Of a stretch of 64,000 bases of DNA, positions 29,380 through 34,024 are shown piece after piece. Numbering within the stretch: position 1 is the first letter of the stretch; each line of letters starts with the position of its first letter. The stretch is from Rhizomonospora bruguierae (GTDB taxonomy: Bacteria; Actinomycetota; Actinomycetes; Mycobacteriales; Micromonosporaceae), in assembly GCF_018397995.1 (NCBI RefSeq), contig NZ_BBQH01000039.1, positions 1 to 64,000 of the forward strand. The letters run 5' to 3'. A program made the position numbers and the translations under genes. The notes beneath the pieces are model-generated. The model was not told where the DNA came from. It did no database searches and saw nothing but the letters and a program-made list of their open reading frames with translations.

Positions 29380-30975
29380 ATGACCGCTCCGCAGCTCCCC
29401 TCGCGCGCCGATGTCGTCGTGGTCGGTGCCGGCCACAACGGCCTGGTCTCGGCCGTCCTGCTCGCCCGCGCCGGCCTGAAGGTCGTGGTACTGGAGGCCA
29501 CCGACGTGATCGGCGGCGCGGCCCGCACCGAGCGGCCCTTCCCCAAGGTGCCGGAACTGAGCCACTCCACCGGCTCCTACCTGCTCGGCCTGATGCCGCC
29601 GGAGCTGCTGCGCACCCTCGACGTGACGATCCCGACCCTGCGGCGGGATCCGCACTACTTCCTGCCCACGCCGGGCGGATCCGGCTCGCCGTACCTGCTG
29701 TTCGGCCGGGACCGGGAGGCGATCCGCGAGCAGATGGCCTCGTTCTTCACCCCCGAGGATGTCTCCGCCGACGACGCCCTCCAGGAAGAACTGGGCGCGA
29801 TGCGCAACGACCTCGGCCCGGCCTGGCTGGCCGAGCCGCTGCCGGTCGAGGAGACCGCCGAGCGGTACATCCGGCCCGCCCTGCAGAGCACGTTCATCAA
29901 CCTGGTACGCGGCTCGGTCGCCGACTACCTGGCCCGCTTCCAGTTCCGCTCCGACCTGCTGGTCGCCATGTACGCCGTGACCGACGGCCTGTCCGGGCTG
30001 AACGCCGGCCCGGACGACCCCGGCACCGGGCACAACTTCCTGGTCCACAACATGTGCCGGCTGCCCGGCGCGGACGGCACCTGGATGATCGCCCAGGGCG
30101 GCATGGGCACCGTCTCCCGGGTGTTCGCCGACGCGGCCCGCGCGGCCGGCGCGCAGATCTTCACCGGCACGCCGGTCGAGTCCATCGCGGTCGACGCCGG
30201 CGCCGCCGCCGGCGTGGTCCTCGCCGGCGGCCACCACATCGCCGCCCGGGCCGTCCTCGGCGCCTGTGACCCGTACCGGCTGATGGCCCTGGCCCCCGAC
30301 GGCGCGCTGCCGGCCGCGCTGACCGGGCGGATGGCGGCGGCCCGCCGCACCGGCACCACCCTCAAGGTGAACCTGGCCCTGCGCGACCTGCCCCGCTTCT
30401 CCTGCCTGCCGCCGGAGGCACCGAGCCCGTTCGGCGCGACGATCCACCTGTTGCCCGGGTCGGACGGCGGTGGCGAGCCGATGGCCGAACTGCGCCGGAT
30501 GTGGGCCGACGTGTGCGCCGGCCGGCTGCCCGCCGAGCCCACCATCGAGTGGTACCTGCACACGACGGTCGACCCGTCGCTGCGGGACCCGGCGGGGCAC
30601 CACTCGTCGGCGCTGTTCGTGCAGTCCGTCCCCTACGAACTGGCAGACGGCACCTGGGAACAGGCGCTCCCGGGGTACGTGGAGTCGCTGCTGGCGCTCT
30701 GCGACCGATACGCCCCCGGCACGTCGGACCTGGTGGCGGACACCCTGCCGCTCACCCCGCCCGGCATCGAGCAGCGGTTCGGGATCACCGGTGGGCACAT
30801 CCACCACGTGGACAACACCGTCTCGTTCACCGACCGGATGCCGTACGCGACCGGCCTGGACGGCCTGTACGCGGGCAGCGCCGGCTGCTTCCCGGGCGGA
30901 AGCGTGATCGGTGCGGCGGGCCACAACGCGGCCCGCCGCGTCCTCGCGGATCTGGGGGCCGGTCAGGGCAGCTGA
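29380..30975 (+). CDS. FAD-dependent oxidoreductase of the phytoene-desaturase/PYROXD2 type
   Basis: A 531-residue flavoprotein. The dinucleotide-binding fold VVVVGAGHNGLVSAVLLARA (about 11-30) and EATDVIGGAARTE are diagnostic. GGMGTVSRVFADAARAAGA is the second family motif, and the C-terminal GLYAGSAGCFPGGSVIGAAG completes the FAD site. It lies 24 bp after the TetR gene, but no carotenoid genes are nearby, so a CrtI role is not supported. The PYROXD2-like group of oxidoreductases of unknown substrate is the better fit. Confidence 0.86.
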   Translation: MTAPQLPSRADVVVVGAGHNGLVSAVLLARAGLKVVVLEATDVIGGAARTERPFPKVPELSHSTGSYLLGLMPPELLRTLDVTIPTLRRDPHYFLPTPGGSGSPYLLFGRDREAIREQMASFFTPEDVSADDALQEELGAMRNDLGPAWLAEPLPVEETAERYIRPALQSTFINLVRGSVADYLARFQFRSDLLVAMYAVTDGLSGLNAGPDDPGTGHNFLVHNMCRLPGADGTWMIAQGGMGTVSRVFADAARAAGAQIFTGTPVESIAVDAGAAAGVVLAGGHHIAARAVLGACDPYRLMALAPDGALPAALTGRMAAARRTGTTLKVNLALRDLPRFSCLPPEAPSPFGATIHLLPGSDGGGEPMAELRRMWADVCAGRLPAEPTIEWYLHTTVDPSLRDPAGHHSSALFVQSVPYELADGTWEQALPGYVESLLALCDRYAPGTSDLVADTLPLTPPGIEQRFGITGGHIHHVDNTVSFTDRMPYATGLDGLYAGSAGCFPGGSVIGAAGHNAARRVLADLGAGQGS

Positions 30976-30988
30976 CCCGGCCGGTGGA

Positions 30989-32599
30989 TCAGCCGTCCAC
31001 GTCGGTGGCCTCGGCCACCTCGACCACCTCGGCGGGCGCGTCCGCCGCCGGCTTGGAGCGCAGTTCGTGGCCCACGCTGGTCAGGCAGCGCCCGCTGGGC
31101 AGGTCGAACTTCCAGCCGTGCAACTGGCAGGTCAGCGTGGTGCCGTCGATGACGCCGAACCGGGTCAGGTCCGCCTTCAGGTGCGGGCAGCGCCGCTGCA
31201 CGATCCAGTCGCCCAGCTTGACGTCCTCGGCGTCCGGCTTCTGCTCGGCGTACCAGCCCTCCGCGTACTGCAGGCGCTCCTCGGACAGGCACTTGAAGAA
31301 CGCGTACACGAACTCGTTGTACTGGCCGATCCGCGCCGCCGAGAACCGGCAGGACAGGAACAGCGAGTTGACCCAGTCCACCTCGCCGGTGTGCAGCAGG
31401 TGCTCCACCAGCGCCCGCTCGGTGCGGAACCGGTAGCGCACCTTCTCGTCCGCGTACCGCCGCACCTCCTTGCCCGGGAAGTCCACCACAATGGATTCAA
31501 CGGTCTCCTCGCCAGCGTCTCCCGACGACCCGACCAGGTCGAAGCGCACCGGCCCGCCGACGCCCTTGGCCAGGTAGACCGACTCCTCCAGCAGCGGCTC
31601 GATGCGCCGCTTCATCTCCTTCAGGATGTCGATCTCCGGGTGCCGCCACGACTCCTTCTCCGCCGCGATCACCACGCGCTGCCGGTCCCGGTACTCGCGC
31701 AGGTACCGCTCCTTGTCGGCGAAGAACTCCTCGAGCGTGACGCCGTCGGGGTGGGTCACGCCGGTCGCGCCCTCGGCGGTCACCTCCGTCACGGAGCCCG
31801 GCAGCAGCACCACCGCGTTGGTGCCACCCACCTTCGCGTACTCCTCCAGGAACCTGCCCTGGTCCGGGAAGATGTTGCCCTCGTCCCCGAAAATGTCGTT
31901 GAACTGCCACAGCTCGTCGTCGAGGAAGCACGGCGGCCCGGCGATCGGGAAGACCGACGACGCCTTCAGGTCGTCGATGTACCGCCAGGTGCGGTCGAAC
32001 TGCCGGTCCCGCTTCTGCTTGCCGAACGCCCGCTTCGCCGACTCCGGCAGCTCGTACACCATCGGGTACCAGATCGCGCCGGAGAACTGGAGCATGTGCG
32101 CGTGCACATGCCCGAGCGAGGCGAACAGCCCGAGATCCGTGGGGCGGGCGTCGTTCTGGTTCAGCAACCGGATCCCGTCGTACTCCACCCACAGCGAGGA
32201 GTCGCCGATCGGGCCGTCCGTGGGGCTGGTCAGCGCCTGGATCATCACCTTCAGGCCGCCGTCCAGCTCGACGACCTGCTCGGTCTTCGTCCGCAGGAAG
32301 CTGGTGAAGCCCAGCTCCCGCAGCTCGTCCTCCAGCTCGCTGGTCGGGAACTCCGGCAGCAGCACGGTCGCCTTCTTCGAGACGAAGCGGCGCAGGTGCT
32401 TGGCGTCGAAATGGTCCCGGTGCAGGTGGGAGACGTACAGGTAGTCGGTGTCGCCGAGGGACTCCCAGTCCAGCCCCGAATTATCCGGGAACGGGAACCA
32501 GGACGCGAAATAGGCGGGGTTCACCCACGGGTCACAGAGGATGCTCCCCGCTGGCGTGTCGATCCGCATGCTCGCGTGACCGGTACCCGTGATCCGCAC
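30989..32599 (-). CDS. Metallo-beta-lactamase/Rieske two-domain protein
   Basis: A 536-residue protein. The N-terminal MBL fold (about 1-270) has SHLHRDHFDAKHLRRF as the metal motif and LNQNDARPTDL for a later ligand. After a helical middle comes a C-terminal Rieske domain (about 440-500) with RCPHLKADL and CQLHGWKFDLPSGRC, giving the Cys-x-His and Cys-x-x-His ligands of a [2Fe-2S] cluster. This combination recalls the CMP-N-acetylneuraminate hydroxylase-like group, with domain order reversed relative to that enzyme. GTG 32599 is preferred since GAGGGAG lies 7 bases upstream. Substrate unknown. Confidence 0.85.
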   Translation of the reverse strand: MRITGTGHASMRIDTPAGSILCDPWVNPAYFASWFPFPDNSGLDWESLGDTDYLYVSHLHRDHFDAKHLRRFVSKKATVLLPEFPTSELEDELRELGFTSFLRTKTEQVVELDGGLKVMIQALTSPTDGPIGDSSLWVEYDGIRLLNQNDARPTDLGLFASLGHVHAHMLQFSGAIWYPMVYELPESAKRAFGKQKRDRQFDRTWRYIDDLKASSVFPIAGPPCFLDDELWQFNDIFGDEGNIFPDQGRFLEEYAKVGGTNAVVLLPGSVTEVTAEGATGVTHPDGVTLEEFFADKERYLREYRDRQRVVIAAEKESWRHPEIDILKEMKRRIEPLLEESVYLAKGVGGPVRFDLVGSSGDAGEETVESIVVDFPGKEVRRYADEKVRYRFRTERALVEHLLHTGEVDWVNSLFLSCRFSAARIGQYNEFVYAFFKCLSEERLQYAEGWYAEQKPDAEDVKLGDWIVQRRCPHLKADLTRFGVIDGTTLTCQLHGWKFDLPSGRCLTSVGHELRSKPAADAPAEVVEVAEATDVDG

Positions 32600-33007: not shown

Positions 33008-34024
33008 TCAATGGCGGCGCAGCAGGTCACGGACCTCGCGGAGCGCCGCGTCCACCTCGGCCTCGAAGTAGCCCCCCGGCACCAGGCTGAACTGCGTCGA
33101 GTCCAGCTCGTTCTCGGTGATCGGCATCGAGCCGCGGCCGGCCATCGCGTTGAGTAGGCCGTCGAACAGCCGGTCAACCTGGTGGGGGTCGTAGCCGCTG
33201 CCGAACCGCCGGACCTGGAACGTGCGCCGGAGCTGGTCGATGCGCTGGAGCTCGACCGGAAGGCCGGGGATGGGTGCGGGGCCGCCCATCGGGGCGCCGT
33301 ACGGGTCGCCGCGTTCCGGCATGCGGATCTCAGCGGTCATGTCCATCTTGCCGTGGCGGCCGGCCTCGAAGCCGTCGAAACCACCGGACGGCCCGTCAAA
33401 CCCACCGGACGGCGGGCCATCGAAACCACCGGGCGGCGGACCGTCAAACCCACCGGACGGCGGACCGTCGAAGCCGCGGGGCGCGTCGTACATGCGCGGG
33501 TCGTAGCCGCCGCCGGGCGGGGGACCGTAGCCGCCACCCGGGCCGTCGTAACCCCCCGGACCGTCGTAACCGCCGCCCGCGTACGACGGCTCCTCGTACC
33601 CGCCGTACCGCGGGTCGTGCGGTGGGGCGGGCTGCGCCGGCGGCGGGGACATCGGACGGGGTGGGGGCTGCATGCGGTCATCCCGCATCGGCGGGCCCAT
33701 GCGCTCCGGCGGACCCATCCGGTCCATGCCGCCACCCGGCATGCCGGCCGTGCGGGGCTCGGGGCCGCGGGCGAAGCCGCCCCGGTCCTCCAACTCGGCG
33801 AGCTGGCGCTCGACCCGGTCCAGGTGCAGGTCGACCTGCCACTCGTCGTAACCGCCGAAGCGCACCCGGAAGACCACGTCGTGGACCTCCTGCGAGGTGA
33901 CCGGCGCGCCCATCGGGTCACCGTTCAGGGTCGACTCGACCCGGTCAAGGAACGAGTCCACCTCGTCAACCTTGTACCCGCGGCGGAGCGCCCGGCGCCG
34001 GAACCGCTGACCCTGACTCGCCAC
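33008..34024 (-). CDS. Protein with two DivIVA-type domains and Gly/Pro repeats
   Basis: A 338-residue protein. The N-terminal DivIVA-like motif GYKVDEVDSFLDRVESTL (about 16-33) is repeated later in the form GYDPHQVDRLFDGLLNAM (about 279-296). Each is followed by a second piece: VTSQEVHDVVFRVRFGGYDE and ITENELDSTQFSLVPGGYFE. The linker (about 95-235) is disordered, rich in Pro, Gly and Met, with five GFDG units in the form GFDGPPSG or close variants. DivIVA proteins mark curved membranes and poles. This gene ends next to rlmN. A scaffold role is inference. Confidence 0.82.
   Translation of the reverse strand: MASQGQRFRRRALRRGYKVDEVDSFLDRVESTLNGDPMGAPVTSQEVHDVVFRVRFGGYDEWQVDLHLDRVERQLAELEDRGGFARGPEPRTAGMPGGGMDRMGPPERMGPPMRDDRMQPPPRPMSPPPAQPAPPHDPRYGGYEEPSYAGGGYDGPGGYDGPGGGYGPPPGGGYDPRMYDAPRGFDGPPSGGFDGPPPGGFDGPPSGGFDGPSGGFDGFEAGRHGKMDMTAEIRMPERGDPYGAPMGGPAPIPGLPVELQRIDQLRRTFQVRRFGSGYDPHQVDRLFDGLLNAMAGRGSMPITENELDSTQFSLVPGGYFEAEVDAALREVRDLLRRH

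Follow-up and report, generated by a model that had tools for sequence, protein, structure and literature searches.

A probable NamH-type muramic acid hydroxylase with metallo-beta-lactamase, SCP2-like and Rieske domains in Rhizomonospora bruguierae

The window, by which we mean the whole 64,000-nucleotide stretch analyzed (positions 1 to 64,000 of contig NZ_BBQH01000039.1 of Rhizomonospora bruguierae), encodes on its reverse strand a protein of 536 amino acids in a frame that runs from GTG at 32599 to TGA at 30989 with no internal stop (Table 1). The mechanical open reading frame extends to 32707, and an AGGGAG lies a few bases 5' of the GTG at 32599. All 23 rows of an alignment of the window protein with 22 chosen relatives, with identities down to 42%, start at the point of this GTG, to which the rows were cut by script from BLAST alignments. 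A second alignment holds the window protein and 19 rows of less than 93% mutual identity, picked from 81. The protein has three parts: an N-terminal metallo-beta-lactamase (MBL) domain, a middle SCP2-like domain, and a C-terminal Rieske domain. Upstream, the genes tsf, pyrH, cdsA, rlmN, and a DivIVA-like gene precede it in that order on the same strand.

Table 1. Coordinates of the namH-like gene, its domains and motifs, and its immediate neighbors in the window
Feature	Position	Strand	Basis
namH-like gene	30989..32599	(-)	GTG start, TGA stop; PF25451 170.5 bits, PF00355 35.9 bits
UlaG-like metallo-beta-lactamase domain, about residues 1-286	31742..32599	(-)	predicted model and profile matches
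HLHRDH metal-binding motif (HxHxDH), residues 58-63	32411..32428	(-)	H58, H60, D62, H63 invariant in 23/23 rows
D128, D133, D150, candidate further metal ligands	32150..32218	(-)	invariant in 23/23 rows
SCP2-like domain, residues 325-452	31244..31627	(-)	PF25451 and predicted C-terminal model
Rieske [2Fe-2S] domain, about residues 452-516	31052..31246	(-)	PF00355 and predicted model
Rieske ligands C471-P-H473, C491-Q-L-H494	31118..31189	(-)	invariant in 23/23 rows
DivIVA-like upstream neighbor (cell growth/division)	33008..34024	(-)	PF05103 E 2.5e-11
FAD-dependent oxidoreductase, convergent, downstream	29380..30975	(+)	PF01593/PF01266

Among Pfam models, the protein scores well above the cut-off of 28.2 bits for PF25451, named "Rv3818-like, SCP2-like domain" (E 2e-50), and above that of 20.3 bits for the Rieske family PF00355 (E 7e-9), with the latter match spanning residues 467-507. 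Two Pfam MBL models fall under their cut-offs (PF13483, 22.6 of 24; PF12706, 20.8 of 27). In sequence-profile comparison with the PDB, two oxygenases come first, FrsH (E 1e-10) followed by CmlA (E 7e-6), both ranking ahead of MBL hydrolases. A predicted model of the whole protein, built from 20 aligned rows, is of moderate quality (mean pLDDT 69.5), and its residues 1-286 match CmlA (5kik; Z 18.1, rmsd 3.5, 234 aligned), FrsH (8a90; Z 17.4, rmsd 3.4, 230 aligned), and a Thermotoga structure (3x2z; Z 17.9, rmsd 2.9, 210 aligned). Some MBL structures that are not oxygenases equal or exceed CmlA (3rpc, Z 19.9; 6brm, Z 19.1), and an oxygenase therefore cannot be proven by the fold alone. The likeness to CmlA and FrsH is confined to the MBL domain and to oxygenase chemistry: the matched region occupies residues 251-532 of their chains, behind a different N-terminal part, and the match included neither a Rieske nor an SCP2 part. 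CmlA and FrsH work in nonribosomal peptide pathways.

The metal site of the MBL domain is strongly conserved. Across the 23 rows, the only invariant histidines of this part are H8, H58, H60, and H63. The HLHRDH ligands and the three aspartates D128, D133, and D150 are also retained by two related proteins that IMG/VR contigs encode, at only 26 to 29% identity. The profile match aligns D150 with an aspartate of CmlA, and all three aspartates are putative metal ligands, judging from their conservation. The combination of invariant histidines and carboxylates would fit an iron site better than the usual zinc site.

For the other two domains, residues 320-516 were modeled separately from 22 rows (mean pLDDT 73.4). 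Residues 3-134 of this C-terminal model match a sterol carrier protein (8af2; Z 9.9, rmsd 4.2, 116 aligned), and the SCP2 domain is also matched by the SCP2-like part of the alkylsulfatases SdsA1 and Pisa1 (Z 7.3-8.2). These alkylsulfatases are hydrolases that combine MBL and SCP2 in one protein and are not known to have a Rieske domain. The last part of the model matches the Rieske ferredoxin-type structure 3c0d (Z 7.7, rmsd 2.7, 62 aligned) and 2qpz (Z 7.6, rmsd 3.5, 63 aligned), and the Rieske ferredoxin and Rieske oxygenase matches together lie at Z 7 to 8. Over about 60 residues such values are modest and on their own weak, and they agree with the Pfam match and the ligands in pointing to a predicted Rieske fold. 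In a wider motif count, HxHxDH occurs in 110/110 rows and CxH...CxxH in 109/110, the exception being a row cut at a contig end (L106); for one conservation count, this row and another cut at a contig end (L088) were removed, leaving 107 of 109 rows. All four Rieske ligands are likewise kept in both IMG/VR-contig relatives. An earlier note on this DNA had described an MBL fold followed by a Rieske cluster at the C terminus, with the HxHxDH site and complete CxH/CxxH ligands intact in one protein. Its coordinates and motifs were right, and a Rieske fold for the C-terminal motif, checked on the predicted model, was borne out; its two-domain account overlooked the SCP2-like domain. One further cysteine beyond the Rieske ligands, C505, is invariant in 23/23 rows and in both IMG/VR-contig proteins.

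The PF25451 domain is nearly universal in the family of the window and thins out beyond it. Counting incomplete genomes, a domain search found it in 116/121 genomes of the family, 84/200 of the order, and 38/396 of the phylum. The protein described here is the single PF25451 match in its own genome, and two copies occur in 4/121 family genomes (G455, G496, G499, and G504). In a tree, the window protein groups with Micromonosporaceae in a clade of 12 rows that has support of 100/100; the placement of the two IMG/VR-contig rows was disregarded because their branches are very long. The contig scan gave 574 confirmed matches, and the best 80, a set that is uninformative on more distant matches, are 80-85% identical and, judging by their titles, all from Micromonosporaceae. 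Thirteen records were matched in a plasmid search, six of them across at least 80% of the query, and plasmids recorded for Nocardia, Rhodococcus, and Tsukamurella carry full-length relatives that are 49-52% identical.

Conserved neighbors were looked for in other genomes and were found. In these best 80 of 574 loci, which include some short contigs, a DivIVA-like homologue is present in 78/80, rlmN in 69/80, and the FAD gene in 65/80. Neighbor clustering covered 20 regions (L111-L130), with the NamH gene recovered in 19/20 (the exception being L126). In three of them (L113, L121, and L122), mreB, mreC, rodA, and then namH follow one another on one strand, with rodA-namH gaps of 118, 115, and 125 bp. 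Beyond the order to which the window belongs, this arrangement links namH to growth of the wall; all three genomes belong to one family (f18) of the same phylum, and the arrangement may therefore reflect a single event. Within the order, a homologue of about 50% aligned identity occurs in genomes where its neighbors are acyltransferase, HAD, amidase, and serS genes. For example, in one such region (L119), the homologue lies near genes for seryl-tRNA synthetase, prephenate dehydratase, HAD, acyltransferase, and amidase proteins, surroundings that presumably resemble the Rv3811-Rv3838c region.

Taken together, these features make it very probable that the protein is an orthologue of NamH, a cytoplasmic hydroxylase of UDP-linked muramic acid in which a Rieske domain would feed a two-iron MBL site. 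It combines a PF25451 match above cut-off, an N-terminal UlaG-type MBL domain with HxHxDH, and, at the C terminus, a Rieske domain in which both pairs of ligands are present. The orthology to Rv3818 is suggested by the Pfam family that bears its name and by named relatives. For NamH (Rv3818 in M. tuberculosis), the work cited is reportedly that of Raymond et al. from 2005. In M. tuberculosis, namH corresponds to Rv3818 (PMC3605390, PMC6194230), and NamH has been described as a muramic acid hydroxylase with a UlaG N-terminal and a Rieske C-terminal domain (PMC10050696) that converts N-acetyl to N-glycolyl groups on cell wall muramic acid in mycobacteria. In a protein-protein interaction assay, MurF was the only partner of Rv3818 reported among the Mur synthetases (PMC3605390). 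The window protein shares with NamH the UlaG-like MBL, the Rv3818-type SCP2-like domain, the C-terminal Rieske domain, and wall-linked neighbors. It is only 49-52% identical to the Nocardia, Rhodococcus, and Tsukamurella relatives, and its tsf-pyrH-cdsA-rlmN-DivIVA surroundings differ from the acyltransferase/HAD genes of other loci.

Homologues of namH were reported in 2018 in Stackebrandtia, Micromonospora, and Salinispora, three genera in which N-glycolylmuramic acid has been described in the wall, along with some species that have a homologue but in which N-glycolylmuramic acid was not known (PMC6194230). The glycolyl wall type has been measured in one Verrucosispora species (PMC5754459), and N-glycolylated murein has been reported in Microbacterium strains (PMC10757982) and Nocardia (PMC10913483). 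As glycolyl walls are known for the bacterial family from these papers, the strain of the window would be expected to hydroxylate its wall in the same way. Because both the NamH chemistry and the gene in Micromonospora and Salinispora are in print, the actinobacterial chemistry, which the earlier note had thought undescribed, is already described (PMC10050696, PMC6194230). The enzyme itself is known, and it has been reported before in this group. The same note had named the CMP-N-acetylneuraminate hydroxylase (CMAH) as the nearest combination of domains. It was right about the type of chemistry and the reversed domain order; since NamH itself is already in print as UlaG plus Rieske, NamH and not CMAH is the nearest known combination.

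An actual CMAH, making Neu5Gc, is very improbable and the least probable reading of all. The animal enzyme also holds MBL and Rieske domains in one protein and hydroxylates an N-acetyl-sugar methyl on a nucleotide carrier (PMC9219854, PMC4819959), so that two kinds of domain and the reaction type are held in common. However, its substrate differs and its Rieske domain is N-terminal, at residues 6-112 (PMC9219854), in a comparison made by description and not by sequence; the window protein has the reverse order and belongs to the Rv3818 family (PF25451). We rejected CMAH as the family on the basis of the domain order, with the Rieske domain at the C terminus, and the Rv3818-type SCP2-like domain. 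No CMAH structure appears among the sequence or fold matches listed, which proves nothing. Hardly more credible is a zinc-dependent MBL hydrolase whose attached Rieske domain would serve redox sensing: the fold matches metallo-hydrolases, UlaG-like ones included, no less well than CmlA, but the MBL part has no invariant histidine beyond HxHxDH and H8, the oxygenases FrsH and CmlA rank first in sequence profiles, and the characterized NamH is described as an oxygenase (PMC10234563). A stand-alone MBL hydrolase likewise has little support, given the invariant-residue pattern and the FrsH/CmlA profile ranking.

More serious, though still improbable, is the reading that the substrate of this NamH-type hydroxylase is not muramic acid but some other N-acetyl sugar, belonging either to the envelope or to a secondary metabolite. 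On two viral-classed contigs, relatives that share its domain order sit among glycosyltransferases and not among wall genes, and the genomes of the family that carry two copies suggest that some copies may therefore have other substrates. In contrast, the window genome has a single copy, nearly all genomes of its family, for which glycolyl walls are known, carry the gene, and its position adjoining the DivIVA-like gene is stable, all of which speaks against another substrate.

For the NamH reading, we interpret the MBL site as an oxygen-activating metal site and the Rieske domain as an electron relay because of the match between the MBL domain and CmlA, a diiron hydroxylase. FrsH and CmlA lead the profiles, the carboxylates are invariant, and NamH has been reported to use molecular oxygen (PMC10234563); from these we propose the following path. 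A cellular reductase would pass electrons into the C-terminal Rieske [2Fe-2S] cluster, which would hand them to the two-iron site of the MBL domain, and this site would activate O2 and add a single oxygen atom to the acetyl methyl group. The substrate would be a UDP-linked peptidoglycan precursor, in which hydroxylation of the muramic N-acetyl methyl would give N-glycolylmuramic acid. The SCP2-like domain would bridge the MBL and Rieske parts and may shape the substrate pocket. The presence of two irons instead of zinc, the electron path, and the role of the SCP2-like domain are thus putative. No reductase or ferredoxin gene was seen adjoining namH in the window, and selected Pfam-named neighbor clusters of the 20 regions contained no ferredoxin or reductase, which is weak evidence on the electron donor. 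We found no mechanism paper in the literature on the NamH electron donor or on NamH with diiron or Rieske, and a paper on the UlaG family (PMC3219644) has no occurrence of Rieske, NamH, or hydroxylase. The remaining interest of this protein lies in its mechanism (the identity of the metal, the electron donor, and the role of the SCP2-like domain) and in its relatives on viral-classed contigs.

Two such relatives are full length. An IMG/VR contig of 190,629 bases encodes an MBL-SCP2-Rieske protein that is 29% identical and keeps all ligands (L131:4992-6533, plus strand), with glycosyltransferase, sulfotransferase, and carbamoyltransferase genes as its neighbors. A Gp23 capsid protein of the T4 type (205.7 bits) is encoded on the same contig, as is a terminase (49.2 bits), so that this gene appears to be carried by a T4-like phage. 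Searched against a phage collection, the protein gave two short partial matches only, at 20% coverage; a search for NCLDV capsids gave no match anywhere, controls included. The second full-length protein (L132:1485-3035, plus strand) is encoded on a viral-classed IMG/VR fragment of 10,445 bases that has no Gp23 or terminase match. Close to its gene are a GT11 gene and another that matches GT29, a sialyltransferase family. Our literature search found nothing on a phage-borne MBL-SCP2-Rieske protein. We tentatively suggest, as a possibility that we hold to be rather doubtful, that NamH is one branch of a wider group of MBL-SCP2-Rieske hydroxylases of N-acetyl sugars, all with a CmlA-like two-iron site fed by a Rieske cluster of their own and employed beyond peptidoglycan as well, in which phage glycan cassettes would modify virus or host sugars. 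If this is true, phages, one of them T4-like, would hydroxylate sugars of the virus or host surface. This pair of relatives is the single thread worth more work.

Two minor observations concern the distribution of the gene. The Micromonosporaceae genomes noted without PF25451 (G426, G452, and G511) consist of both drawn members of the genus g268 (93% and 82% complete) and one g251 genome that is 99% complete, and are possible losses. In Microbacterium, a relative with 42% identity (L135:2001-3758, plasmid NZ_CP072877.1) is annotated as three frames, namely MBL, hypothetical, and Rieske, and represents either a broken namH homologue or a sequencing error.
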